A stretch of DNA of 45,664 nucleotides from a virus, in IMG/VR virus record IMGVR_UViG_3300032315_000272, positions 1 through 45,664 of that record; one strand, written 5' to 3'. Below the pieces are notes generated by a model, which worked only from the letters and a program-made list of their open reading frames with translations, was not told the DNA's origin and did no database searches. A program made the translations under genes and the position numbers. This document shows positions 1 to 36,900 of this stretch, piece after piece. The first letter of the stretch is position 1, and each line of letters begins with the position of its first letter.

Positions 1-374
1 ACAGAAGCTGCCTTGACTTGTTTGGTGTATGCCATAGCACGGGCCAAAGCTTTGGTGTAGCGAGCAGACAAGCTGTCGTACAAGTTATCTTCAATCGCTT
101 CTTCAGTGATTGAGAAACCCAAGGCAATGGTTTCGTGGTTGTAGCGTGCTGTGAACGCTTCCTGCGCATTGTCATAAGCAATGGCAGAACCTTCGTTCTT
201 AACAGGAGCTGCACCGAAGCCGGCCAACTTGGTTTCTTCTTCAAAGCTACGCTCAGATTTCTCTGTCTCGTAGATTTCCTTGTGCTCTTCGCCGTAGCGT
301 GCGTACTCCATGCCGAACAAAGCGTTCAGGCCGGGAAGCAATTCTTTGAGCAGTTGTGCGCGTGAAATAGCCAT
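1..374 (-). CDS. Major capsid protein, N-terminal part (cut by window edge)
   Basis: The first 124 residues of a major head protein are present and the rest lies beyond the left edge. The start is the ATG at 374, preceded by AGGAG at good spacing. The N-terminus carries the arm typical of capsid proteins in aquatic podovirus-like phages: R5-A-Q-L-L-K-E-L-L-P, then L-N-A-L-F-G and E-Y-A-R-Y. A segment with T-I-A-L-G-F-S-I-T-E-E-A-I-E-D-N follows. The gene is the last one visible in the left late block, after terminase, portal and scaffold, which is the expected place. Identification rests on the N-terminal arm and gene order. The fold-bearing middle and C-terminus are not in the window. The arm is closely mirrored in an early protein encoded at 18884-19297. 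Confidence 0.85.
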   Translation of the reverse strand, partial: MAISRAQLLKELLPGLNALFGMEYARYGEEHKEIYETEKSERSFEEETKLAGFGAAPVKNEGSAIAYDNAQEAFTARYNHETIALGFSITEEAIEDNLYDSLSARYTKALARAMAYTKQVKAAS

Positions 375-1044: not shown

Positions 1045-1497
1045 TTACTTAGAACCTGAACCAAAACCCCCGCCACGAGTGTTCGTTGACTTGCGGTCGC
1101 TGAACAAAGGCATCCGAGGATCGTTGTTTCGCATGAAGTGGTTGTCCACTGAATCCATCTGGTTCTGCGCTTGCTTGCTAAAATAATCATCCCGGGCTTG
1201 CGCTTTTTCAGCGGACATCTTGCATAGCATGAGGCCGCCAATTTCCACGTTCCCAGTTTTCTCATTGCCAAACAGTTGCAGTTCTGGATGGTCTTCTGCC
1301 TTCACCGGCTCCCAGCCTTCGCGCATCTTACGAGACACGTTAGTTGGGTCTGCCTGTCCTAGTACGTGAGTCGCAATCCAGCGATACAAATACCCGGGCT
1401 CAGGCGTTGGGTCTGGCAGAGATGTCGGCGGTACATAGACTGCGCGAGCATTAGTTTCGCGTGACACGAGATCACGAGGTGTGCGAGTACTGGTCAT
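1045..1497 (-). CDS. Conserved virion-cluster protein of unknown function
   Basis: 150 aa, hydrophilic. A Pro-rich stretch lies at about residues 22-34, W-I-A-T-H-V-L-G-Q at about 40-48 and W-E-P-V at about 62-65. The C-terminal tail is Gly/Ser-rich. Its start overlaps the scaffold gene's stop by 4 nt (ATGA at 1494-1497), so its translation is probably coupled to the scaffold. Position between scaffold and the decoration-like gene argues for a head assembly role, perhaps a minor head or completion protein. No catalytic motif is visible. Function is unassigned. Confidence 0.6.
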   Translation of the reverse strand: MTSTRTPRDLVSRETNARAVYVPPTSLPDPTPEPGYLYRWIATHVLGQADPTNVSRKMREGWEPVKAEDHPELQLFGNEKTGNVEIGGLMLCKMSAEKAQARDDYFSKQAQNQMDSVDNHFMRNNDPRMPLFSDRKSTNTRGGGFGSGSK

Positions 1498-2429
1498 TGT
1501 TGATTCTCCAATTTTGCTACTTGTGCAGCGTATTGCTGCGGGGTCAATCCAAATTTCTTAGCCAGAGCGATCTGGGTATTCGTCAATTGGACTTTTTTAG
1601 CCCCCGACGATCTTGTGGCAGGGGCTACGACGGAAGCAGGTTTTCTTGGAGACTCGGTTTGTGACCGGTCTTCGCCCCCGAAAACTTCGGGGAATTTACT
1701 CTTCACGCGAGCATCAATCTGCTCGAAATACTCATCAGACCTTGGGTCGGCCCCTGAGTTCACTAGTTTTTGATGCAGCCCTAATGCGTAGCTGGTAACT
1801 TCTTCGAACCCATTTGCTCCGAACCACTGGTTTTTAGCTTGCCAGCGCAAGGTTTTTTCGTCCGGTTGTACGCGTTGGGATTCGCGATAGCTAGTTTGTA
1901 CCTCATCTTCGTCAACTTGTAAAGGGGCTGGACGAAAATTTTTCGTTGCCTCCATTTTTATCTTGGCGTCGAGGAGGGCTTCTTGAGCAGCAAGGATGGC
2001 ATCGGAATCAAAAGACTCCTGTGCTGCCTTGTACTCTCGGCGGGCTTTGTCCAACTCTGACTCGGCCAGAGTCTTAGCCTGCGCTACAAACTGCTCAGTA
2101 CCTGTGTTGACGTTACGGCGGAGACTCTTGTTCTCCTCCATCAACTGTTGTGCAAGACGCTCAAGCTCTTGCTTTTCGCGCAGAGTAGCTTCTTTGGCAC
2201 GGCGCTCATCATGGCGGGCATGTGTGAGTTCCTTGATGCGATCTTGAGCACCCTTGGTGTACTTCTCGATTTCGTCATCGGTGGGGTCTTCGACCTCACG
2301 GTCCAAAGGCTTACGGCCACGGTCTTTTTCAGGCGTGTCGTCAATTATTTCGACTTCAATGTCGTTGTCCGTTGTAATCTCGACTTTACTTTCTTCGAGC
2401 TCGTCCGGAAACTTGTATTCGTCCGTCAT
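1494..2429 (-). CDS. Putative capsid scaffolding protein
   Basis: 311 aa. The N-terminal 60 residues are strongly acidic. A long charged helical/coiled-coil region follows at about residues 60-175, rich in E, K, R, Q and A with heptad-like spacing. The C-terminus has a basic patch near A-K-K-V-Q-L-T and a short helix ending K-L-E-N-Q-Q. An acidic, helical, low-hydrophobicity protein just upstream of the capsid gene is the classic signature of a scaffold that guides procapsid assembly and is then released or cleaved. Basic C-terminal helices bind the shell in known scaffolds (P22), and the same is plausible here. The assignment is from composition and synteny; there is no sequence motif that proves it. 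Confidence 0.7.
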   Translation of the reverse strand: MTDEYKFPDELEESKVEITTDNDIEVEIIDDTPEKDRGRKPLDREVEDPTDDEIEKYTKGAQDRIKELTHARHDERRAKEATLREKQELERLAQQLMEENKSLRRNVNTGTEQFVAQAKTLAESELDKARREYKAAQESFDSDAILAAQEALLDAKIKMEATKNFRPAPLQVDEDEVQTSYRESQRVQPDEKTLRWQAKNQWFGANGFEEVTSYALGLHQKLVNSGADPRSDEYFEQIDARVKSKFPEVFGGEDRSQTESPRKPASVVAPATRSSGAKKVQLTNTQIALAKKFGLTPQQYAAQVAKLENQQ

Positions 2430-3072: not shown

Positions 3073-5528
3073 TTCTTAGGTGTTCCGGTTGGTTTATTGA
3101 GCCCTTGACGGGACTTAGCGATGTCAATACCCATTTGGGTACCGGCACGTTCTTGTTCGGCGGCTAAGCGATCGCGGTTTGTCGCGGCTGTAACGGCCAG
3201 TTTCTTTTCTTCCAAGTGCATCTTGTCCGCTTTGTCGGCGGCTTCCATTTGCAGGCGTTTTTGCGCCAACTCCAAGTCTCCTTGCACCTTTTGGGCTTTG
3301 GTCTGGACTTCTTGCTGCTTGAGTTGCAACTCTTGTTGTTGCATTTGTACAACAGGGTCTTGGGCAGCTTGCTGCGCTTTTTGTTGCGCCGCTTGCGCTT
3401 GGTTCTGCTGAAGTACTTGATTAGCCGCTTGCGCCATCATGTTGGACAGTGCAAGCTCGACCTCGATCGGCAGCTTCTTGTCCTCGGGCGGCAACGCCAT
3501 GCCAAGCTGCTGCTCGATCTTCTGGCGATAGGCGAAGCCTGTGTGCTCGGCAATGTGGGCCATAAGTGCTGCCTGCATCTGCGGAGCCTTGGGGTTCTGG
3601 CCAATCAACTGCTGGATCATGGGGTCCTGAATCATGGCCATGTGCACCTTGATGTGGGCCTCGTGGTCTTGGTACTGGAACGCCTTGACCGGTGCACACT
3701 TGAGCACTTCTTGGTTCTCAGACACGGGGTCGGTCGGCTTCATGTCGTCTTCCAACGGGATGAGCTTCTCTGCGTTCTTGATGCCTAACACCTCCAACAT
3801 GTTGCGGTGCAACTGCGGCAGGTCGTAAATATCAGGAGCCATCTGAGCCATCTGGATCACGGCTTGGTACTGCACCACACGCTGGCTCATCGTCGCAGCA
3901 TTAGGGTCGCTTACTGGGATGATGTCGCAAGCGCTGTAGTCCGACTGCTTGGCTGTGCGGCTGCCTTCTTCTGGCTGGAACTCGTAGTCTGGGTCTGTGT
4001 AGTCGCGGATGATGGCTGCCAACAAACGCAACTCTTGTTTGAACGCGTAGTGCAGACGGGCTTGCACCGCTGTCATCACCTTTAGCTGACGCTCTAGCAA
4101 AGCAAGGGTCGTACCCACAGGGGCTTGGGAAGACATGTCGGACACCTTCATGTCCGCAGTAGCGGCGAAGCGACGGCCTTCCTCCACGATCTTGTCTAGC
4201 AAACCTGCCAACACGGCACTTGGCTCTTTATATGGGAGCGGCAAGATGCTGTCGCGCATGTTGCCGGAGCCGACGTCTACGTCGCGCCACTCGCCCGGTG
4301 CAATTGGAGTGTCATCACCTTTGATGCGAAGTCCCCGTGACTTGAGACCGCCGGGCAAGTTAGACAACGTTCCAGCGTCCACCAGTTGACGCATGATTGA
4401 CGTCGCTGACTTGGCGAAGCCTCCGATGAGATGGAACAGACCGAAGCCGTAGGCACCGAAACCCGGTATGTACTGGTAATGTACAAAATGCTGTCGCTTG
4501 AGACGTAAGTCATCGTCTTCCTTCCAGTTGCGGCGGATTGCCAAGATGTCGTTCGTGCCTTTCACCATGGTCACCACGTACGGCAACGCGATGCCTGTCT
4601 CTTCTCCGTCACCATCGGTGTCCTCGTAACCCTGAAGGTCCAAGTCCGCATGAATCTCAAGGATTGTGTAGCGGTCATCATCAATGTCGCTGAAGCCGGT
4701 CTCTTTGTCCTTGGCCTTTTGAATGTCCGTCTGTTCTTTGGTGGCTTCGCCCAACTCGCAGTCAAGGTAGAAACCAGCTTGCTGGAGCTTTTTGATCTCG
4801 TTCTCGGTCTTGCGCATGACGTGTGTCAAGCGGTAGCAAGTGTCCATGTCGGTCGTTCCGTACGGCAGAATAATGTCTTCCGCGGGGACAAACATCGAAA
4901 CCTGACGTCCCAAATTGGGATCGTAGTAAACCTTCTTAAAAGCAGAGCCGGTGGCCGGCAGTGACCACAGCATGCGTTCTTGTTCTGGGCGGAACTCGCG
5001 CATGACCTCAGTCAACTCGTAGTTCATGTCCTCCTGCACGCGCAGGGCTGCATCTTTCTTGTCTGGAGTCTCTTTGCCGACAATCTTGGTGCGCACTGGG
5101 CCCGCGGCTGGGAACATCTCGGTGATTGTTTCTGACTGGAACCTGACCACCGCCTCAGTAATCATGGGGTGGAACACGCCAGACGCGCCGTTCCAAGGCT
5201 CTGTGCGCTCTTCGTACTGGAGACCTAGCAGCTTCAAACCCTCGGTGTACGCCTTCTCCCAATCCTTGCGGCTGGCTTTGTCTTGATCGACCACTGCGGC
5301 CAGATCGCCGGCCAACGACTGCATCGCGCTTTGGTCCATGTACTCGGCAAGGTTGTCATCAAAGCCTTCGTCGTCTTTGTCTTTGCTGGGGATCAGGTCG
5401 ATCTCCATGCCATCGATGCCAATCTTGACTTCTTCAGGATCAACGATCTCAATTTCAATCGGCTCCTCGTCTTCTGCAAGGGCGTCAATGCCTACGGGGG
5501 CTTGGTACAGGGATTTGTCGATGGCCAT
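3069..5528 (-). CDS. Portal protein (head-tail connector)
   Basis: 819 aa. It forms the dodecameric ring at the capsid vertex through which DNA is packaged and ejected. After an acidic N-terminus (residues 1-60), the body shows typical P22/podovirus portal features: W-N-G-A-S-G-V-F-H-P-M-I-T-E-A near 115-130, F-Q-S-E-T-I-T-E-M-F-P and E-R-M-L-W-S-L-P-A-T-G-S-A-F-K-K-V-Y-Y. It later contains T-S-I-M-R-Q-L-V-D-A-G-T-L-S-N-L-P-G-G. The C-terminal 130 residues are a Gln/Ala/Lys-rich coiled coil, consistent with a barrel-like extension inside the head. At about 820 aa it is longer than T7 (536) or P22 (725) portals. It lies 8 nt downstream of the large terminase. Confidence 0.92.
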   Translation of the reverse strand: MAIDKSLYQAPVGIDALAEDEEPIEIEIVDPEEVKIGIDGMEIDLIPSKDKDDEGFDDNLAEYMDQSAMQSLAGDLAAVVDQDKASRKDWEKAYTEGLKLLGLQYEERTEPWNGASGVFHPMITEAVVRFQSETITEMFPAAGPVRTKIVGKETPDKKDAALRVQEDMNYELTEVMREFRPEQERMLWSLPATGSAFKKVYYDPNLGRQVSMFVPAEDIILPYGTTDMDTCYRLTHVMRKTENEIKKLQQAGFYLDCELGEATKEQTDIQKAKDKETGFSDIDDDRYTILEIHADLDLQGYEDTDGDGEETGIALPYVVTMVKGTNDILAIRRNWKEDDDLRLKRQHFVHYQYIPGFGAYGFGLFHLIGGFAKSATSIMRQLVDAGTLSNLPGGLKSRGLRIKGDDTPIAPGEWRDVDVGSGNMRDSILPLPYKEPSAVLAGLLDKIVEEGRRFAATADMKVSDMSSQAPVGTTLALLERQLKVMTAVQARLHYAFKQELRLLAAIIRDYTDPDYEFQPEEGSRTAKQSDYSACDIIPVSDPNAATMSQRVVQYQAVIQMAQMAPDIYDLPQLHRNMLEVLGIKNAEKLIPLEDDMKPTDPVSENQEVLKCAPVKAFQYQDHEAHIKVHMAMIQDPMIQQLIGQNPKAPQMQAALMAHIAEHTGFAYRQKIEQQLGMALPPEDKKLPIEVELALSNMMAQAANQVLQQNQAQAAQQKAQQAAQDPVVQMQQQELQLKQQEVQTKAQKVQGDLELAQKRLQMEAADKADKMHLEEKKLAVTAATNRDRLAAEQERAGTQMGIDIAKSRQGLNKPTGTPKK

Positions 5529-9175: not shown

Positions 9176-9907
9176 ATGGAATACGAAGACAAACTCTGTG
9201 CTCAATGCCAACGCATCAAGCCCCACGCACAGTTCAAACGACTGCTCACCCGAGCACAAAGCAAGGCACGAGGCTACGTTGGGCACCATCGTGTCGAGAT
9301 AGACAGCAAGCTATGCAAGGACTGCCAACCCAAACTCAAGCCCGTTGAGCGCCTCACCAAAAAAGAAATACGCAACCGCGTTGCGGCGGGTGACATGCAT
9401 CCCATGATTGGCGAAGGCATCATCAAAGAGCGTGACGACACAGTGAATCAACGCCGAGCGGCAAAGACTGCGTCACGTTGGGCTGACCTGCAAAGTGTCG
9501 AATGGCGCAAACTAATCAAAGCCATCGGAGCAGAGATCACGATCACACGACAGCAACTAAAGTATGCAGAGAACATAGGTGACCACACCCGAGAAGTGTT
9601 TGCTCTGACCTACCTTGTGATGATGAACAAGTTGCGGGCGAAGATGCGCGTTGCCGCGCTCAAACCTCAAGGTGCCCCCGAGTCGGTGTATTGGGTCGAC
9701 CACCTGCACCGAGAAGAAATACAACAAGTGCGTGATGTATGGGAGCAGATACCGATGCTGGCCCGATCACGCATGAAGATGCCCCTTGCCCTGCGTCACC
9801 GCACGATGGGCGAGAGCGAGTACCGACCCGAGCTGAAGCTCAGAGGGAAGGACTACAAGACACCCGCCGAGCGCATCGCTCCCTTCAAAGGGAACGGTCA
9901 CGCGTAG
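9176..9907 (+). CDS. Zinc-ribbon-like early protein of unknown function
   Basis: 243 aa, ATG with AAGGA 8 nt upstream. The N-terminus has two Cys pairs, C8-x2-C11 and C47-x2-C50, with H37-H38 between them, a likely zinc-binding treble-clef or ribbon. The rest is basic and helical (W-R-K-L-I-K-A-I-G-A near 110-120) with a conserved-looking tail E-Y-R-P-E-L-K-L-R-G-K-D-Y-K-T-P. A nucleic-acid-binding role is plausible; no named family is recognised. After the stop comes a G5/C5 hairpin (9912-9927) and then the palindrome terminator. Confidence 0.65.
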   Translation: MEYEDKLCAQCQRIKPHAQFKRLLTRAQSKARGYVGHHRVEIDSKLCKDCQPKLKPVERLTKKEIRNRVAAGDMHPMIGEGIIKERDDTVNQRRAAKTASRWADLQSVEWRKLIKAIGAEITITRQQLKYAENIGDHTREVFALTYLVMMNKLRAKMRVAALKPQGAPESVYWVDHLHREEIQQVRDVWEQIPMLARSRMKMPLALRHRTMGESEYRPELKLRGKDYKTPAERIAPFKGNGHA

Positions 9908-9911
9908 TTTT

Positions 9912-9962
9912 TGGGGGATTTCCCCCACAACCCCGATGCGGACAACCTGTCCGCATCTTTTT
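9912..9962 (+). terminator. G/C hairpin followed by palindrome terminator
   Basis: First hairpin TGGGGG / CCCCCA (9912-9917 with 9922-9927, loop ATTT), then the dispersed palindrome GATGCGGACA / TGTCCGCATC (9935-9944 with 9948-9957) followed by TTTTT. Two stems in tandem after one stop codon make a strong termination or RNA-end-protection site. Confidence 0.8.
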
Positions 9963-9984
9963 CAACTGTAACTAGGAGCACATC

Positions 9985-10464
9985 ATGACAGACCAAACCC
10001 CCATCAACACACCCGAGCAACACAGCGTACTCATCGACAACATAGGCAAATACCTAGTCGGCATGATCGAGGGCATCGTGGAGCGCAAAGTCAACGAGAT
10101 ATTCGACAGCCACGCAACGATGACGCTCATCAACGAGAAGACAGAGGAGCGACTGCGCGAGATAGCAGAAGCTGTAATCGACGTACACGAGGGCGACTTC
10201 GAGCATCACAGCACAGACGACATAAGCGACACAGTAGCAACCTATGTTCACAACATCGACCTCGCAGACAAAGTTAAGTACGCAGTACACGAACTCATGA
10301 GCGATGGTGACTACGCCACCGAGGATCGTGTGCAAGAAATGATCGACGAGAGTGACTACGTCACAGAAAGCCGAGTGCACGAGATGGTGGAGGAGCAGGT
10401 GCAAGAGGCGATTGACGAGCACGACTACGAGGAGTCGGTCAAACAAGTGTTACGTAACATCTAA
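9985..10464 (+). CDS. Acidic repeat protein of unknown function
   Basis: 159 aa, very acidic, predicted helical. The C-terminal half is built of a repeated unit of about 13-15 residues (D-Y-A-T-E-D-R-V-Q-E-M-I-D, D-Y-V-T-E-S-R-V-H-E-M-V-E, then D-Y-E-E-S-V). Such acidic repeats can mimic DNA or form protein scaffolds, but this is only a composition argument. GGAG lies upstream of the ATG. The stop is 12 nt before the next gene, with which it is probably co-transcribed. Confidence 0.6.
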   Translation: MTDQTPINTPEQHSVLIDNIGKYLVGMIEGIVERKVNEIFDSHATMTLINEKTEERLREIAEAVIDVHEGDFEHHSTDDISDTVATYVHNIDLADKVKYAVHELMSDGDYATEDRVQEMIDESDYVTESRVHEMVEEQVQEAIDEHDYEESVKQVLRNI

Positions 10465-10476
10465 AGGAGAGTAATC

Positions 10477-11148
10477 ATGCCAACTGAAATCACAGTCACC
10501 GCATACAAGTTCGAGGAACTAGAAGGCAGGGCAAAAGAAAAAGCCCACGCAAAACTCACCGAGTGGATAACAGACCATGAGTGGTGGGACAGCGTGTATG
10601 AGAACGCAAAGGAAGACGGCGACAAGCTGGGCTTTGAGATCAACGATATCAGGTTCAGCGGGTTTTCATCGCAAGGTGACGGCGCACATTGGACAGGGCG
10701 TATTGACTTGCAGACTTTTGTTGAGACTAACCTCGATGAGCGTAGTGCATGGTACGCAGAGGACGTCCTCTTGGTTGCGTTGTGGGAGGAGGGGTGGATT
10801 GACAGATGGATAAGTATCGACAACCACAACTATCGCTACTGCCACTCGGGTGGCATGAGTATGTCCGACCACCCCAACAACTCGTTGAATGTAGATGATG
10901 ACGATGTCGCTGAGCTACAACATGGTGCGTTAGCAGGCGCAACCATCTATCAACTCAAAGAATCGTTTGACTACGAGCAACGCATCACCGAGTGGTGTGA
11001 CGAAGCGCTGACACAAGCACGTGCCTTCGCCGATGACATCTACAAGAAACTTGAGAAAGAGTATGACGACCTGACGAGCGAGGCTTCATTGATTGAGTTC
11101 GCAGGTGTGCATGACTATGTGTTTGATGAACGCGGCAATATGCTGTAA
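10477..11148 (+). CDS. Conserved phage protein with F-S-G-F-S-S-Q-G-D-G motif
   Basis: 223 aa. The N-terminus (Y-K-F-E-E-L-E-G-R-A-K-E-K-A) and the motif I-R-F-S-G-F-S-S-Q-G-D-G-A (residues 58-70) are typical of a protein seen in many phages and some bacteria, to my knowledge without an assigned function. The rest is acidic, with many Trp and Tyr residues (W-W-D-S-V-Y near 36-41). AAGGAG precedes the ATG. It lies in a run of early genes with 11-23 nt gaps. The strongly acidic character would fit a DNA-mimic or inhibitor role, but I have no motif for that. Confidence 0.65.
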   Translation: MPTEITVTAYKFEELEGRAKEKAHAKLTEWITDHEWWDSVYENAKEDGDKLGFEINDIRFSGFSSQGDGAHWTGRIDLQTFVETNLDERSAWYAEDVLLVALWEEGWIDRWISIDNHNYRYCHSGGMSMSDHPNNSLNVDDDDVAELQHGALAGATIYQLKESFDYEQRITEWCDEALTQARAFADDIYKKLEKEYDDLTSEASLIEFAGVHDYVFDERGNML

Positions 11149-18883: not shown

Positions 18884-19297
18884 ATGAGTTTTGGAAAAGC
18901 CGTAGCAAAAGGTGAAGGTCAAATCGTTGACGAGTACCGCGAGCTAAGCGACAAAGAAAAGCTGCACCAAGCACAGCAGTACATCAAGCGCTTGCGTAAT
19001 CAAATCGACGATATAAAAGGCGAGGCAATGTTGTATCGCAGATTACGCCAGCTGGAAGTCATCATCATGGCAGAGGATGGCGCAAAGTATTTGAAAGGCG
19101 TTGACCTTGATCGCTACATTGATGATTTACCCCACATAGGTGGGTTCACCCGCACTGAGTTACTGAAAGAGCTAGTCCCTGCATTGAATAGTTTGTTTGG
19201 TGAGGAGTACGAGCGCTACCAAACGGAGCACGGGGTCGAAATAGCGGCGCACCTAGAGAAAATGGAGGCGATCAATGGCAATGACACCAGAGGCTAA
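18884..19297 (+). CDS. Early protein carrying a copy of the capsid protein N-terminal arm
   Basis: 137 aa, GGAG before the ATG. The N-terminal half is a charged coiled coil (K-E-K-L-H-Q-A-Q-Q-Y-I-K-R-L-R-N-Q at 25-40). Residues 90-116 match residues 5-31 of the major capsid protein encoded at 1-374 at 18 of 27 positions: L-L-K-E-L, P, L-N, L-F-G, E-Y, R-Y and E-H are all shared, and most other changes are conservative. The shared codons differ at many third positions, so this is an old relation kept at protein level, not a recent DNA copy. In the capsid protein this segment is the N-terminal arm. An early, non-structural protein with the same arm could bind a capsid partner (scaffold, chaperone, capsid itself) or share a host target. 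Function is not known. Confidence 0.65.
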   Translation: MSFGKAVAKGEGQIVDEYRELSDKEKLHQAQQYIKRLRNQIDDIKGEAMLYRRLRQLEVIIMAEDGAKYLKGVDLDRYIDDLPHIGGFTRTELLKELVPALNSLFGEEYERYQTEHGVEIAAHLEKMEAINGNDTRG

Positions 19298-19583: not shown

Positions 19584-19860
19584 GGAAACAAAAGAGTCGC
19601 TGGAGTTCATGGAACAGGTAGACAGCCTTAGCCAACAACAGCGCGATCACCTGCGCATCGTGGTGAAGAAGATCATCGCGTGCTATGTCGACCCAAAGCA
19701 TCACGCAGTCATTGTCGTGGGTAACGACGACAGCGAACAAGCCACGCTGTTGACGATCAACGCAGATGAGATGGAGGCTGCGACTATTCTGGCAAAACTG
19801 GAGGGCATGTTCTACGAACTAAACACGGTAGGCGCACCACCCAAGGAGATGATGAATTGA
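19564..19860 (+). CDS. Small protein before DNA polymerase
   Basis: 98 aa, acidic. A helical N-terminus (T-F-E-E-T-K-E-S-L-E-F-M-E-Q-V) is followed by a short beta segment (H-A-V-I-V-V-G-N-D-D) and a C-terminal helix. Overlaps the nuclease gene by 20 nt, and its stop overlaps the polymerase start. TTTAGGAG lies upstream. Not recognised; position suggests a replication accessory role. Confidence 0.6.
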   Translation: MTRRTFEETKESLEFMEQVDSLSQQQRDHLRIVVKKIIACYVDPKHHAVIVVGNDDSEQATLLTINADEMEAATILAKLEGMFYELNTVGAPPKEMMN

Positions 19861-21863
19861 GCGCACCATTTAAACAAATCGTAACCATCGACTTCGAGAC
19901 GCGTTGGGACAGCAAAGAGTACACGCTGTCGAAGATGACAACAGAGGAGTATGTTCGTGACCCAAGATTCAAAGCGTTCGGGGCTTGCCTCCATGTATAT
20001 GGAAGCGATGGAATTGTGCAATGGTATGGAGACAACGAGCTACCTAGAGTCTTATCAACATTCGACTGGGGACGAACCGCCATCCTTGCTCATAACGCCC
20101 AATTTGACGTCTCCATACTTGAATGGCGCTACGGAGTACACCCCTGCTTCATCTTCGACACGCTATCAATGGGACGCGCTTTACGAGGCGTGGAAGTTGG
20201 CAACTCCCTTGCAAAGCTGGCGCTCGACTTTGGACTTCGACCCAAGGGAACGGCGGTCTATAGCAGTGAGGGCCTCACATCAATTTCGCCAGAGATTGAA
20301 AGAGAACTTGCCGACTACTGCGCCCATGACGTGTACCTGTGCGAAGAAATTTTCACTCGGTTCATTGATGGATACCCCAAATCCGAACTGCGTCTGATTG
20401 ACATGACGTTGAAGATGTATACCCGCCCTGTCCTTGAACTTGACGGGCCAATGCTTGAGGAGGCACTGTATGACGAACGAACCAAACGTGAAGCGCTACT
20501 TGAAAAGCTCGGCGTGGAAGAAGCTGCTCTCGCGTCGAACGCACAGTTCGCGAAGGTTCTTGAATCTCTTGGCGTCCCTGCGCCGTATAAGAAAAGCAAG
20601 ACCACTGGCAAGCCAGCTCTTGCGCTTGCAAAGAACGATGCGCTATTCCAACAGCTCCTTAATGGGTCGAACGAAGACGTCTCCCTACTCTGCGAAGCGC
20701 GTCTTAAAGTTAAATCTACAACTGAGCGCACGCGAGCGCAGCGCTTTCTTGACATCTCCCGTCGTGGCGCGTTGCCTGTTCCCCTCTCGTACTACGGGGC
20801 ACTATCGGGCCGCTGGACAGCAAGCAAGGGTAGTGCCATCAACATGCAAAACCTCAAGCGAGGTTCGTTCTTACGCAAAGCAATTATGGCTCCCGAAGGT
20901 TGCGAACTGGTCGTGGGTGACCTCTCGCAGATTGAGCCGCGAGTACTCGCGTGGCTTGCAGACTACGAAGACATGCTTGACATCTTCCGTGCTGGCGGTG
21001 ACCCTTATGCCGCGTTCGGTGCTCAGATGTTTAACATTCCCGGCCTCACTAAAGAGAGCCACCCTGACCTGCGGCAGTCTGCAAAGAGCGCGTTGCTTGG
21101 TTGCGGTTATGGGCTTGGGTGGGCGTCTTTCGCAGCACAACTACTGGTCGGATTCCTCGGTGCGCCGCCACAACGCTATGACAAATCGTTTGCGAAGAAA
21201 CTTGGCGTTAATGCGACTTACGTCCAGTCGTTCATCGACTACAAAGACAACCTAGAAAAGATGGCCGAGATTCCCCACACCTGCACCGAGGAAGAACTTC
21301 TCACGCATTGTGTGGCGGCTAAGAAGATCATCGACATCTACCGCAGTACGGCGTACCCCGTGGTTGGCTTCTGGGAAATGTGTTCCTCGTTGATGGTGAG
21401 CGCACTGCACGATGGGCACGAGCATACTTACAAGTGCATTACGTTCCGCAAGGAAGAAATCGTCTTGCCAAACGGCATGAGTTTGCGGTATCCTAATCTG
21501 CGTCAAGTCAACAAGACCGAGAAGCTGGCCGATGGTACGATCAGAACTCTGAAAGAAAAAGAGTGGGTCTACGGCGAAGAAGGTGTAACGCCTACGAAGC
21601 TGTACGCGGGTAAGATTACCAACAACATCGTGCAAGGTGTTGCGCGTATCGTGATGACGGACGGCATGCTACGCGTTGATAAACGCTACCCTGTGAAGGG
21701 GACAGTGCATGACGAATTGATTGCTGTTGCACCAGCAGAAGAAGCAGCTGCCGCTAAGACTTGGGTCTTGGCGCAGATGACTATGGAGCCGAAGTACATG
21801 CCCGGGATTCCGCTTGATGCGGATGGCGGTCATCATCGACGGTATGGGTTAGCTAAAAACTAG
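19857..21863 (+). CDS. Family A DNA polymerase with 3'-5' exonuclease domain
   Basis: 668 aa. The proofreading domain has Exo I I-D12-F-E14-T, Exo II H-N-A-Q-F-D84 and Exo III Y154-C-A-H-D158. The polymerase domain has motif A D355-L-S-Q-I-E-P-R, motif B R406-Q-S-A-K410-S-A-L-L-G-C-G-Y-G and motif C V-H618-D619-E620-L. All catalytic residues are present, so it should be the replicative polymerase, as in T7-like phages. The start appears to be TTG at 19857, overlapping the previous TGA (TTGA) with AAGGAG 8 nt upstream; no later ATG keeps Exo I. At about 670 aa it is near T7 polymerase (704). An insertion lies in the fingers/palm between motifs B and C. Confidence 0.95.
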   Translation: MSAPFKQIVTIDFETRWDSKEYTLSKMTTEEYVRDPRFKAFGACLHVYGSDGIVQWYGDNELPRVLSTFDWGRTAILAHNAQFDVSILEWRYGVHPCFIFDTLSMGRALRGVEVGNSLAKLALDFGLRPKGTAVYSSEGLTSISPEIERELADYCAHDVYLCEEIFTRFIDGYPKSELRLIDMTLKMYTRPVLELDGPMLEEALYDERTKREALLEKLGVEEAALASNAQFAKVLESLGVPAPYKKSKTTGKPALALAKNDALFQQLLNGSNEDVSLLCEARLKVKSTTERTRAQRFLDISRRGALPVPLSYYGALSGRWTASKGSAINMQNLKRGSFLRKAIMAPEGCELVVGDLSQIEPRVLAWLADYEDMLDIFRAGGDPYAAFGAQMFNIPGLTKESHPDLRQSAKSALLGCGYGLGWASFAAQLLVGFLGAPPQRYDKSFAKKLGVNATYVQSFIDYKDNLEKMAEIPHTCTEEELLTHCVAAKKIIDIYRSTAYPVVGFWEMCSSLMVSALHDGHEHTYKCITFRKEEIVLPNGMSLRYPNLRQVNKTEKLADGTIRTLKEKEWVYGEEGVTPTKLYAGKITNNIVQGVARIVMTDGMLRVDKRYPVKGTVHDELIAVAPAEEAAAAKTWVLAQMTMEPKYMPGIPLDADGGHHRRYGLAKN

Positions 21864-23369: not shown

Positions 23370-23636
23370 ATGCCCTACAAAAACAAAGAAGACCGTATTC
23401 CGTACCCAGCGTATGACCAGAAGCCCGAGGTCAAGAAGAAACGCGCTGCCCGCAATCAAGCCCGCGCCATCATGGAGCGCGAAGGAAAAGTAACCAAAGG
23501 AGATGGCAAAGATGTTGACCACAAAAAACCCCTCAGCAAAGGCGGCACCACAACGCCAAGTAACCTACGAGTTAAATCTGCCAGCGCAAACAGAAGTTAC
23601 GCACGCAACTCTGACCACACAATCAAATCTAAATAG
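23370..23636 (+). CDS. HNH-type nuclease, minimal
   Basis: 88 aa, basic. The C-terminal half carries the HNH pattern: V-D50-H51-K-K-P-L-S-K-G-G (strand and catalytic His), S-N65-L-R-V and A-N74-R-S. The zinc cysteines of many HNH proteins are missing. It may nick DNA, for example in packaging or recombination, or be a mobile-type remnant; no intron or repeats surround it. The 3' half overlaps a second reading frame that starts at 23503 or 23512. Confidence 0.75.
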   Translation: MPYKNKEDRIPYPAYDQKPEVKKKRAARNQARAIMEREGKVTKGDGKDVDHKKPLSKGGTTTPSNLRVKSASANRSYARNSDHTIKSK

Positions 23637-23955
23637 CGTTACGGTATCCTCGTCTATGCTTCAAACCATCACGGGGAGCGTGCACAACACAACGAAAGTA
23701 AGCATGCCACCAGATCGGTGGCCCCACGCACAAACCAACATGGCCGAGCTCAATGAGCACGCAGCTTTTAAAGCACCCATAGCTGTGTTGGTTGATCTCT
23801 GGGTAACACGTTTTGGAAATGAATGGGTTGATCTAGAAACCGTTGAGGAAGATGAGTTCTTTCTCATAGTCTATAAACGATTGCGACAGATGGCGCACCT
23901 AGAAATGCACTACCTAACAGATCGAGCGCGATACGTTTGTAGAAAACCAGAATGA
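23503..23955 (+). CDS. Hypothetical protein overlapping the HNH gene
   Basis: 150 aa from 23503, or 147 aa from the ATG at 23512, which has AAAGGAG 9 nt upstream. Both lie inside the HNH gene in another frame (about 125-134 nt overlap). Later ATGs (23656, 23704) avoid the overlap but lack good binding sites. The first 75 residues are low-complexity (Thr, Gln, Ser, Asn); the second half looks folded (V-L-V-D-L-W-V-T-R-F-G-N-E-W-V-D and Y-K-R-L-R-Q-M-A-H-L). Function unknown; the folded part is certain to be a gene, the N-terminus is not. Confidence 0.5.
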   Translation: MAKMLTTKNPSAKAAPQRQVTYELNLPAQTEVTHATLTTQSNLNSVTVSSSMLQTITGSVHNTTKVSMPPDRWPHAQTNMAELNEHAAFKAPIAVLVDLWVTRFGNEWVDLETVEEDEFFLIVYKRLRQMAHLEMHYLTDRARYVCRKPE

Positions 23956-30795: not shown

Positions 30796-30973
30796 GAGCT
30801 TCTTTGTAGCGGGTCTTGATCTAGAAGGAATAAGGGAGCGCGGCTTACTCGCTGCGCTCCCCTACCGGTACAAGATGCAAGCTACCTTCGGCGTCCAGAA
30901 CGGCTTTATTGGCGTGAGATTTCGTCGGCTGTCTGGCGGATTGTCAAGGCTAAGGTCTTCTTCATCTGCTTGA
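30755..30973 (+). CDS. Small basic protein at end of early block
   Basis: 72 aa from the ATG at 30755 (a TTG two codons earlier is possible). It overlaps the end of the primase gene by 41 nt and the 3' end of the opposite-strand giant gene by 68 nt. The N-terminus Y-P-L-A-N-L-K-P-G-E-S-F-F-V resembles small phage proteins of unknown function. The middle reads Q-A-T-F-G-V-Q-N-G-F-I-G-V-R-F-R-R and the end is Arg/Ser-rich, suggesting DNA or RNA binding. No strong binding site. Confidence 0.5.
   Translation: MALRYPLANLKPGESFFVAGLDLEGIRERGLLAALPYRYKMQATFGVQNGFIGVRFRRLSGGLSRLRSSSSA
30834..30861. terminator. Hairpin at the convergent junction (possible two-way terminator)
   Basis: Perfect 8-bp stem GGGAGCGC / GCGCTCCC (30834-30841 with 30854-30861), 12-nt loop, inside the 72-aa gene and 45 nt beyond the stop of the giant gene. 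No T-run on either strand, so termination would be weak or factor-assisted. Confidence 0.35.
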
Positions 30974-33900
30974 TCTCGTCGATGAGCACACGCTTCTCGG
31001 CGGGTGGCATGTCCATAGCCTGAACGGCACGCTCGTACTGGGTCAGCTCTTTCATCTGCGAAGTGAAGAAGTCGCCCACCTCACCAACAGCGTACTCGTT
31101 GCCAGTCTTCTGCAACAACTCGTTGGCATCCGCCTGACGGCCATCTTGGAATAGCTTGTCGACGGTGCGCTGCACCTTCATGGCGTCCTCGAATCGGTCG
31201 TAGGTAGCGTTGACAATACCGCCCGCGTCATTGGGTTGGAAAATCCCGCCGATGACAGGCATGTCCGACAAACGCTTGGTGGCTTGCTCTGGGGTGTTGC
31301 CCTTGGGGATACCCAGACTGACCGCTTGCAAGAACGCCAGACCCATTGCTCCGGTGTAGCCGTTGACCAACTGTTCCAAAATAATTGGTGATGTGCCTGT
31401 AATGCGGCCAGCCATCTTGGCGGCTTCGGATGTGTTGGTGCGGAACTGCTCCGCAGGTAACAGCCCTTTCTCGGCGCTGGTCAGAATGTCGCGCTCTGTG
31501 TAGAACGACTTGCCGAGCGCTGCCTCGATGGTGGGTTTAATCGCTTGCGGGATTGGGATTGGAATCGGCACACCGCCGATCGTAGGCATGCTGCCGCCGC
31601 CGGGGATTGTTTGCAGCAAGATGTGGCGGAAAGCCTTCACAGCCTCTTCGCTGCCGTGCTCGTTCATCATGGTGTTGTACAACGCCTCGGGCAAAGCCTT
31701 GAAGATGTAGCCAATTTCGAATGGTACGGGAATACGTACAGGTTGATCGACACCGGGGATGCGCACAAACCAGTTGCCGTACTTCTGCTCGGGGTTGGCG
31801 TCTTTGTACGCTTCGTCGTCCTGCATCATGGCGGCGTAGGCCAAAGTACCTGCGGCCAGCATAGCTCCGCGCTGCAACAACTTCTCCTGAATCTTCAGGC
31901 GTTCGTTGAACGGCATATTGCCAGTCATCGCCTTGTACAACACGTTCAGACCTTGAATCTGTGAGTTGAAGAAGGGAACCATGGACGCGATGATATGTAT
32001 GCTGGGTGACGCACCGCGTTTGCTAAAGTTCATGGACTCCAGCGCCATGAGCGTGGCCTCCATTTCCGACAGACCCTGTTCGATGTAGCTGTTGTACTGG
32101 GCGCGACGTGTTAGCGCATCGGCTTCCATACCAATCGCTTCAGCCTTGGCCAAGGCGCTCATCCACCCGGGTTTACCCGAAGTAATCTCGCGCAAGATCA
32201 TGGATAGGTCTTCGTTGTTACCTGTGAACTGCTGGCCACCAGTGATACCGCGGCGCTCCAAGAGCTCCTTAGTTGGTTTGTTGATCTGTCTCAATGCACC
32301 AAACACCGGCATAAAGTCAGCGCCGGACAGAATCGGGGCTGCCAACGAGTCACGGAACAACTGCCTTGCCGCGTAGATAGGCGATAGTGTCACTGCCTTA
32401 CGCAACAGACGCGACGGCATACCCAAGATGCGGAAAGCCAGCGGCATCTGCGTTGGAATACCTTCCATGCCTTTGACAATCAGATCACCGGGAATACCCT
32501 TAGTGCCCTCAACAGACGCATACTTGTCTTCGCCGTCTTCTTTGTACTTAACGATGTCTGGGCCGGATGTTGCGCCCACGATCTTGGCCATCTTCAAATC
32601 CACGAGTTCGTAGACAGCGTTCTTGGTGGCCAAGTTGCGCATGCCCATGTCCACCAGCATGTTGGTGTTCTGCACCGAGCTGGTCATGAAGTCGAGGATT
32701 GGCTTGTCGTCTCCCACCAACTCGTGCAGGTATGGCTGCTCGGCAATGCTGCCGATACGGATGCGGGACTCACCACCGATCATGAGCTCGGCAACGCCGT
32801 TGCTCTCACGATACCAAGGGATGTAGTCGTTTTCTTGGGTCAACTCTTTGCTCAACTGCTCGGAGATAGCGCCGGTGCTGGCCAAGAAATTCATCATGTC
32901 GCGGTTGTAGTCGTTGTATTCACGGCGGGCGTCGTCAAAGATTGCTTTGAGTTCTTTGTTGCCGTCGACAAACTTCTTTGCTTTACGCAGGTCTTGCTCT
33001 GTAACGTCTTTGGAAAAGCTCAACGAAGCAAAGCCCTTGCTGTCCGCACGGATGGCAGACATGTATGCAGTAAACATGCGGTTGACGGCTTCGCCGTTAC
33101 CGACGTAAGGCTGCGCATCCTTGAGGATTTGCACCACGCCCTTGATGCTTGCGCCGGGTTTGCTCTCGATGACGTACTCTTTCTGACCGTCCTTGCGGGT
33201 CTTTTCTACGCGAGCCAGAGCACCGTTGCCCACAGCTTGTGATGTGAAGTGCATGCGCTGGTCGTACATGCGGAGGTAGTACATCATCTGGCTACCCTTG
33301 AGCTCATCCATGACTTTGGAGAGTCGCTCCAGCGGAGCAAAACGGTCAACCAGTTGGGTCTCAAGGCCAAGGAAACCGCCAGCCGCAGCGCGTACTTTAT
33401 CGGTGGTTGACTTGTTACTAGCCATGAATTTGTCGATAGACTCACCCGCTTCGCGGGCTTCGTCATTGTTGTACGTAGCCGACACGCGATATAGGGCACC
33501 GCTTGTATCAATGAGTCCGCCTTGGCCGCCTTTACCTTTTTTAACGAAGCGGCGTGCGTTGGCTACGATTTGCTCGACCTCGGCATCCGACACATTCTTT
33601 ACGTTAAACGTACGTGCCAACCATTGTTTAATAGCGTACATAACGCGGCGTACAGCGTTGGCAAAGGGAGAACCGGCCAACTTACCTTCTTCGGCTTTCT
33701 CTGCCAAAACTTCTTCCACAGCAACTTCACGAGTCAAGTTTTTATTCTTGCCCATTTTGTTGTCAGCTTCGCGGCGTACAGCAGGATTGCCTTCATAGAT
33801 ACCGTTCATGGTCGAGGCGTACTTGTCGCCAAGCATCGAGCGCATACCAAAGTGACCTACGACTTCGTGAACTACGGTCAACGCCACATCATTGCCGTTG

Positions 33901-36900
33901 TGTAAGTTGTTGGCAACCAAGTAAACAATACCTGTTTTTGTATCAAACAAACCGGGAATCTTGCCGGTCATGCCGTCACGCTTAGCTTGATCTTGAATGT
34001 GCTGGGGCAACTGACTCTCGTCGGCTACTACCTCTACTGGCGGTACAACTTCCCAACCGTCCATGATCTTGTCGGCCAGACGAGCAACAGCTTGCTCATT
34101 CATGCCCGCGCCTTCACGTGTCTGCGTACGGAACAATCCGCCTAAATCGTTGTCGTACTCGTCAACTTCAATTCCGGCATCAAGAGCACGAGAAGGCGTA
34201 GTGGGCGTAACCTTTACCTCTGCCGCTGCTTTTGTGCCTCGTATACGTGAAGCAACCTCGTTGACCATGCGCTGTTCTTCACGGCTCATGGCTTGGTAGT
34301 CACGTTCACTCTTAGCGGCGATGTCGCCTGTACGGAAAGCTGTACGTGCAGATTGTTTTGCAGTTGTGTCAACAGTCAGCGCTTGTTGCTTGCGAGCGGG
34401 TCTGCCTTCCTCAGTTACTTCGCGCTGAGCTTCCAACTCCGTCAGTTTCTGCAACATGCCTAGTTTGGCTGTGGCGTCTATCATGTCTTGGTCTGAAGAC
34501 GTTTCGCTATCTACGATAGCGCGTAGCTCAGCTTGGTCATCAGGCAAATTCTCAACACCTGCCAACTCACCCACCACTTCGGCAATTTCTTTGTCAATCT
34601 CGGCAACCTGCACACGCTTAGTCTGTGCACGGATGTAAGCGTCGTCGGCCCTATCTTCGGCAGCAAACGCGTCATCGCGGAGTTTGTCTATGCGAAGTCG
34701 CTCGGTGGACGTAAGTGCCTCAACCTTACCTTCGACGCGGCGCTTACCAAAGCCGCCCCACATCTCGCGCCAAATATCTTCTAACTGACGGGCTTGGCTC
34801 TTGATCTCTTGCACAGTTTCTTTTTGCTGGCGCTCCGCGCCTTTGAGCTCGGCTTGCGCAGCCTTAAGGTCAACCTCCGCTTTTTGTGCAGCAAACGGAT
34901 ACTTCAGCGCGGGTATTACCGGGCCTTTTCCGGGTAGGGCTTTTGTGACGCTTTCACCGCGCATAGTGGCCAGATTGGTTTCTAGGTCGATGATGCGGTC
35001 ACGCAAAGCCTGAACCTTCTTGTCGCTGATAGCTTGCAGCACAGCGGCTGCCGTGTCGTGCGCATTTGTGCGCGTGTCCATTGAGTTTTCAAGATCGTCT
35101 AACTGATCTTTGATCTGCTTCTCAAGGTCTTCAATAATTGACTTTTTTTCCTCGTAGCGGAACTGCTCGTAGGTGACCAGCTGCGTGCGGTCTTTGCCAT
35201 CCGACTGGGCCAGTATGTCTTTGACTTTCTTCTGGATACGGTTCAGCTCAGCCTTTTCTTTTTCAAGAGTTTTCTGCGCTTTGTCTAAGTCGGCTTTTAC
35301 TTGCTTGATGTCTGGGTCAAGAATTTCAGCCAGCTTCGTGTCCATCTCTTCACGGGACTTTTTAAACAACTGCTCTACACGCTCGCGGTACTGGCCTTTG
35401 GCTTGTTCCGCTTTGGCTTCTAAAGCGTTGATGCGCTGAGACAGAGGGTCTTTGCGTTCTATTTTGCTGATCGAACGCAGATGTTTTAAGGCCGTATTCA
35501 TAACGGCCAGTTCTTGGCGCAACGTGGCTGCTTGGTTGCGAACACTCAGGTTAGCGTTCTGCATTGTTTGCAAAAGCTGGTTGTCCAAATCCTCAAGGCG
35601 GTTGCCTTGAGACACAAGCTGCATCGCTTCTTTCAAACGCTTCTGGTACTCAGGCACTTTGACTGAGTTGAACTGGCGCAGCAGTTCTGCTACTTGTTCT
35701 TTTTCAGTTTGAGACAAGCCGTTGCCTTTGTCGGCAAGATAGCGATCGACCAACGCTTGTTCGGCGGGGGTGTTGCCGATTTCAGGATAGCTGACATACG
35801 CTTTGGCTAAATCTTTATCCGTCCACCGTGTTGTGTTCGTCCAGAAAAACTTGGTATCGTTCTTGACACGTTCGATCTCGTCGTTGAGGCGTGCGATAGT
35901 TGTGGACACGGCCTTACTGCGGGTAGCAATAATCGCGTCTTTGTCGGCCTTGCGCTTTGCTGCGGCGCGTGCTTTACCCAATGCCTCCCATGCTTCACGA
36001 ATCTTCGGTGAGTTGGCAAAGTTCTTGGGCGACATGCGGATGTATCCGATGTCTTTATCTGTCTCAGGGAACAGCGACTTCTGACCAGCTTCTTTCTGCT
36101 CAGTTGTTGTTGGGCCAAGCGCAGCTAACGCATCCTTAATGTCTTGCTGGTACTCGCTCAGCGGTGCACGTTCTTCTTCGTAGCCAACAGTGGCGTACTT
36201 ACGGCGAACACCCTCACGGGGCTTACCTTCAACAAAATCAGTTTCTTCACCACGGGTCTTGGGCACCTGAGTTTCTGAAACACGTTTCTCAGAAACAATA
36301 TCGCGGCGTTTCGTCAACATGCTGCCGGTGTCTTCACCGCGCATAACGCGCTCAACTTGAGTATCAACAGCGTCAAGCAAATCTCGGCTCACGCGTTTGT
36401 TTTCAATTGCGGTACGGGCGCTCTCCAACACATCACGCAACTCGCTTTCGGCGGGTACGCGTTGCAACGCTTTTTCTAAGTTAGTTAGTGTGTACTCACT
36501 ACGACGACGTAGTTCACCGGCTAACGTTGTGGCTGTCTCGCCTTTTGCTTCGCCGACTTTCTTGGCTTCGGTGGCAGCAAACTGGGGCTTGAGCAAAGTC
36601 TCAACGCGAGTAGACGTAGAGGGCACTTCGCTGAGTTGGTTGCGCACAGCCTCGATGCGAGACTTAAAGTGTTTGACTTCGGCAGGGCTAATGCCTTGTA
36701 CGGCTGGCTTTACCTCAACACGTTTGGTAACAGCTGGGCGCACGATCTTGTTGGCACGCATCTGCGCTGGCTCAACAATCTGTTCTTCGTACTGGGCGGG
36801 CTGAGACTGCGTAGCGGAACGCTCCACCCAGTCGTTCACGGTATCGTAAAGTTTAGACGCGGCTTTGATGGCTTCGTCCTGAGTGAGTGAGGGCTTACCT

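Follow-up and report, generated by a model that had tools for sequence, protein, structure and literature searches.

Why should a virus carry the N-terminal arm of its major capsid protein (MCP) a second time, on a small protein encoded beside its replication genes? This question is raised by P0001, a 137-aa protein in the window analysed here, which is the whole 45,664-nucleotide stretch of IMG/VR record IMGVR_UViG_3300032315_000272. The window features that bear on the answer are as follows.

1..374, minus strand: major capsid protein (MCP), 5' part, cut by the contig end (phrog_371 major head protein, E 4e-9)
282..362, minus strand: MCP N-terminal arm, residues 5-31, the copied segment that matches the P0001 block
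1494..2429, minus strand: probable scaffold protein (phrog_28737, E 1e-31; full-length match to the scaffold profile)
18884..19297, plus strand: P0001, 137 aa, with a long helix/coiled coil (residues 11-56), a core (residues 57-85) and a C-terminal MCP-arm tail
19141..19189, plus strand: variable-site stretch of the P0001 gene, in which all five sites that vary between the window and L003-L006 fall within 49 nt, at or just before the block
19151..19231, plus strand: captured MCP N-arm segment, P0001 residues 90-116
19857..21863, plus strand: family A DNA polymerase (Pfam DNA_pol_A, 2.5e-24)
23503..23955, plus strand: LW-family protein (winged-helix-like), 150 aa

The capsid arm of P0001 is a captured gene segment

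P0001 is probably an early protein, judging from the position of its gene, which lies beside those for DNA polymerase A, a nuclease and an SNF2 helicase, whereas the head genes are on the other strand. A good ribosome-binding site precedes the start codon (AGGAGAAGATC-ATG), and four more contigs encode a protein that is 99% identical. Structure prediction gives, with moderate confidence, one long helix (H11-56) for the N-terminal half; the core is a beta-hairpin plus a helix with the pattern YRxLRxxxVxxxxxGxxYLKGxDLDxY. No PHROG or Pfam family could be assigned to P0001, and neither a sequence search of solved structures nor Foldseek returned anything significant.

The capsid likeness noticed in the preliminary description, 18 identities in 27 positions between RTELLKELVPALNSLFGEEYERYQTEH (P0001 residues 90-116) and RAQLLKELLPGLNALFGMEYARYGEEH (MCP residues 5-31), was confirmed by translation and by own-genome searches, which recovered the pair in both directions (E ~1e-7). 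The reported silent-site differences are equally real: the block is identical to the virus's own MCP gene at 54 of 96 nucleotides, with many silent codon sites differing. The two proteins have some 30 residues in common, and this is not full-length MCP homology. The DNA of the block matches the MCP gene of another phage (77% over 75 nt, E 3e-11); it is therefore a captured fragment of an MCP gene, and convergence is ruled out. A second capsid piece, at P0001 residues 2-18, is only suggestive: MSFGKAVAKGEGQIVDEY resembles MCP residues 49-68 (GFGAAPVKNEGSAIAYDN), with an iE of 0.02-0.03 in L109 and no significance for P0001 alone.

The MCP belongs to phrog_371, a group with the HK97 fold, and has 597 relatives in viral contigs. 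The gene at 1494..2429 probably encodes the scaffold, as its position between the GroES-like and MCP genes and its family suggest, and it is annotated as scaffold in none of the named relatives. As to the host, MCP matches in genome bins fall in bins of mixed phyla, the best being a Burkholderiales MAG contig (95%). The structural strand also holds a 2754-aa open reading frame at 30906-39170.

Tails are exchanged on a conserved core

L and G numbers denote the loci and records compared, which are metagenomic contigs (L168 is record G053). Orthologues of P0001 were located via the neighbouring DNA polymerase gene, upstream of which they lie in L091-L094, and then in L231 and L318. A clear arm is found in L003-L006, L092, L093, L231 and the more distant homologue L318, and a diverged arm occupies the same place in L091 and L094, so the capsid link persists in the orthologues. 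In named phages, neither P0001 nor any such tailed protein was found. Some orthologues have neighbouring paralogues that share the core (YRxLRxxxVxxxDGxxKYLKGxDLDxY) and differ in their tails. G061 carries three tandem P0001-core paralogues at 9746-10945 (minus strand), each with a C-terminal tail of its own; one of these tails alone is a clear MCP arm.

Substitution rates tell how these differences arose. Across L091, L092 and L094, the core has a dN of 0.014-0.03 and a dS of 0.35-0.56, and the arm block a dN of 0.40-0.48 with a dS above 1 or saturated. A core this nearly unchanged next to an arm with saturated dS means that tails have been replaced and not merely mutated; in other words, the carrier domain is retained and the tail on it is exchanged. 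The clustering at the block of the five sites that vary between the window and L003-L006 is also significant within the gene (P = 8e-4). Where the arm is kept, dN/dS is mostly 0.19-0.49, rough values from short alignments, with L092/L093 higher at 0.68. The residues P10, L12, F16, E19, Y20 and Y23 are kept in 10-11 of 11 arm tails. A14 and G11 (positions in the 27-residue block) are invariant in 166 MCPs and replaced in nearly all arm tails, on all carriers; their loss may mark a contact that the shell needs and the mimic does not.

Capsid and scaffold segments occur on several small-protein families

P0001, the one case in the preliminary description, belongs to a wider pattern. In related contigs, several unrelated families of small proteins with genes close to those for DNA polymerase and helicase bear MCP segments. 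An MCP profile run against 35,526 ORFs found some 35 such small non-capsid ORFs. The captured regions are the arm (within residues 1-47), residues 91-135 (the spine-helix region), 161-214 and 276-301 (the C-terminal strand). The carriers are the P0001 core family, in which the segment is a C-terminal tail, as in P0001 itself; the LW family, whose genes are flanked by an HNH gene and that for the SNF2 helicase, with an N-terminal tail; an L140 protein with a twin-arginine-like signal (a weak match); an unrelated 119-aa protein in G011; and short proteins in G050 and L131. Scaffold is represented as well: 17 LW tails of relatives bear at the N terminus the motif with which the scaffold-like protein ends (LTATEVALAKKLGVSAQMYA versus LTPSQVAIAKKLGVPLEEYAKYVK in the latter).

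Several segments may occur in one record. In G061, four small proteins carry the arm (10227-10607), the scaffold motif (4094-4459), the spine region (3717-4187) and the MCP C terminus (3400-3753). L289 and L292 have spine, arm and C terminus on three consecutive small genes. G060 encodes a full MCP and scaffold of its own, plus tails with the scaffold motif and the MCP C terminus, and a spine-like tail seen by eye only. In the window, the P0001 arm block is the single recognisable piece, and the N-terminal tail of the LW protein at 23503..23955 matches neither MCP nor scaffold.

Residues 61-124 of the LW protein are modelled as H-H-H-E-E with a pLDDT of about 90 or higher; outside this domain, the predicted models are of modest confidence. 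The best Foldseek matches of the domain are mostly CRP/FNR-like and not significant (E >= 0.2), and a single-sequence scan of bacterial genomes found no LW relatives. In every cluster, the LW gene that comes first (23503-23955 in the window) combines a conserved C-terminal domain with a hypervariable N-terminal tail (for example APGGVITDVDSVTMADLDS and TITGSVHNTTKVSMPPDRW). These hypervariable tails have no significant match; some look tail-fibre-like by eye, a resemblance that searches of tails against gene profiles did not support.

Other small proteins of these contigs deserve mention in their own right. The L140 protein (4205-4489) combines the twin-arginine-like signal RRGFLGAIFAAAAAPAIVRA with a C terminus, LTRQQMIDQLLPELNKLFNIEHSKYMEN, that weakly resembles the MCP arm (E 0.02-0.9 by profile). 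At L094:719-2318, L097:1294-2983, L107 and L159, consecutive small early ORFs of differing sequence share near-identical C termini (AIEAKLKEKNT/KEKNNG), many of them with a WVGLTDEE motif, and make up a further family of this early region with shared tails.

The matches are specific to MCP and scaffold

The possibility that the likeness reflects chance or helical low complexity is ruled out by reversed and shuffled profiles, and the pattern is uncommon in unrelated helical proteins. A reversed MCP profile gave no match in the 35,526 ORFs, none in 25 records scanned singly and none among 154 tails of the two main families, and no match of four shuffled profiles to the first ORF set fell below 0.3. 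Of these 154 tails, 35 match MCP and 17 match scaffold (E<0.02); as some of the matches are orthologues, these counts exceed the number of independent captures.

Capture of just any phage gene is likewise ruled out. When 54 profiles made from the genes of a complete relative were run against the 154 tails, scaffold matched 17 (best 5e-9) and the other 53 matched 0-1 each, which is chance level; MCP, which the gene caller had missed in this set, was tested separately. Apart from truncated or distant homologues, profiles of 20 other window proteins found no short fragments save for a few marginal ones, one of which is a scaffold C terminus in L168 and belongs to the pattern. A portal-like tail in L239 (HLAxHMSAM), good by eye, scored E 0.01-0.11 and is at chance level. 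PHROG models, which were built by others and are independent of our profiles, give the same picture: four LW proteins match phrog_28737, to which the scaffold-like protein of the window belongs, and L094:4054-4494 matches phrog_371 (major head protein). The occurrence of MCP and scaffold segments as exchangeable tails on early proteins is thus well supported, and the block of P0001 is one captured segment of a repertoire spread over several small-protein families.

What the tails may do

In P22 and 80alpha, the coat-scaffold contact has the MCP N-arm on one face and the scaffold C terminus on the other; in P22, a spine-helix residue takes part as well. That MCP and scaffold appear as tails, and no third protein does, suggests binding at the interface used in procapsid assembly. 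We infer that the tails are mimics of this interface. The arm tail would attach to the partner of the capsid arm, probably the motif at the scaffold C terminus, and the scaffold tail to MCP. Since the carriers (a coiled coil, a winged-helix-like domain) lack the shell fold, a carrier bound in this way would cap or divert assembly and not join it. Captured mimics of the coat-scaffold interface that act as competitors while the procapsid is assembled, with other phages perhaps as the target, are the reading that we favour, tentatively and at somewhat under an even chance. The likeliest benefit would be interference with the assembly of co-infecting related phages or satellites, as some tails resemble proteins of another clade and change fast; control of the phage's own assembly would be an alternative benefit. 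Two observations count against such a mechanism: no scaffold contacts are known for MCP segments 161-214 and 276-301, and many LW tails match nothing at all, with a single recognisable piece in the window.

The question of whose capsid is imitated has a mixed answer over all tails. The arm of the window is as near to the virus's own MCP as to its own clade in general, and arm tails resemble their own clade and others equally, giving no signal of own or foreign origin. It follows that an arm-based poison could hurt its maker. A foreign signal is found in scaffold and some C-terminal tails. The scaffold tail of G060, a clade A record, scores 53 with its own scaffold, and all 62 scaffolds of clade B, to which DSL-LC04 belongs, score higher (median 87); the scaffold tail of G053 and the C-terminal tail of G065 are also nearer to another clade than to their own proteins. 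The clade favoured by these three tails is DSL-LC04-like or QDWS535-like. That the tails are a repertoire refreshed by recombination from various phage lineages, and serve to poison the assembly of related phages that share the cell, is a bolder proposal that we regard as doubtful.

The sole close precedent is the CpmB motif of satellites. CpmB of the Staphylococcus satellite SaPI1 outcompetes scaffold with the same C-terminal motif at the MCP N-arm (PMC5644958), and, like the LW proteins with scaffold tails, is a small protein that shares the MCP-binding motif of the scaffold C terminus. CpmB is satellite-encoded, has one motif and redirects capsid size, whereas the tailed proteins lie in phage genomes, bear both MCP and scaffold segments and have several carriers. 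P0001 differs further, as it carries the opposite face of the contact, the arm and not the scaffold motif, and its record also encodes MCP, portal, terminase and polymerase, so it is not satellite-encoded. A phage-encoded blocker of another phage's assembly is also known: Tab, from a Pseudomonas prophage, stops virion assembly via the tape measure protein (PMC10884400). Tab acts on tail assembly, and its abstract mentions no segments of structural proteins. The interface tails and these two precedents are what make us favour interference or competition, which would rank ahead of capsid-sensing decoys, docking tags and functionless fusions.

Tails might instead show capsid and scaffold surfaces to the host, occupying or jamming its sensors before the real MCP appears. 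Several defences are triggered by capsid proteins: CapRel contacts the P-domain sheet and spine helix of MCP, a short MCP peptide triggers Lit, and Thoeris senses MCP (PMC9712102, PMC11312562). In Lit/Gol, CapRel and Thoeris, short MCP regions including the spine helix are recognition signals, tails cover the spine region, and rapid exchange of tails fits an arms race. Those signals, however, lie in the real MCP, and here copies sit on early proteins; we found no described phage decoy bearing capsid segments in the literature. The scaffold C terminus is no known trigger, the known triggers portal and tail tube are absent from the tails, and decoys should resemble the phage's own protein, whereas several tails look foreign. 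PADLOC, moreover, gave no credible defence-model match for P0001 or five family members. We rate anti-defence decoys as unlikely, if the least so of these three alternatives.

Internal proteins of T4 carry one N-terminal capsid-targeting leader, which the prohead protease cleaves, and they resemble the tailed proteins in being non-shell proteins with a short head-targeting segment. By analogy, tails could dock their carriers in the procapsid as internal or ejected proteins, an idea that gains from the binding of the scaffold C-terminal motif to the shell interior in P22 and 80alpha and from the presence of such tails on several unrelated carriers. One constant tag would be enough for this purpose, whereas the segments of the tailed proteins, from MCP and from scaffold, are of several kinds, may sit at the N or the C terminus, are swapped and are often missing; the carriers also sit in the replication cluster, and spine and C-terminal pieces of MCP would make poor tags. 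Docking strikes us as improbable. Just as improbable is that abundant recombination has simply attached scraps of capsid genes to small accessory genes, leaving tails without function. DNA-level homology to MCP genes, frequent exchange and the many members without a recognisable tail are what such a process would leave, but random capture should sample all genes, and the tails hold pieces of MCP and scaffold alone. Unrelated carriers repeatedly have the same segments in frame, and the low dN/dS of most arms, with the same core residues kept in several orthologues, also speaks against lack of function.

The roles first suggested for P0001 include these leading hypotheses, namely holding back or seeding assembly, occupying the scaffold and binding a host factor, all as putative functions; a link of replication to packaging and an action on the co-chaperonin gained no support.

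Significance

As far as we could find, early proteins tailed in this way occur in no described phage. If the tails bind coat or scaffold, the procapsid-assembly interface has been taken apart and its pieces re-used as portable modules, which would open a new route to virus-virus interference, to blunting capsid-sensing immunity or to loading heads with proteins, and would provide a natural library of peptides for coat-scaffold interfaces. Should the mechanism be CpmB-like, the tailed proteins would be kin to CpmB, and an exchanged set of several proteins would still be undescribed as far as we found. And if the poison repertoire proves true, these phages would wield a protein-level weapon made from pieces of their rivals' virions.
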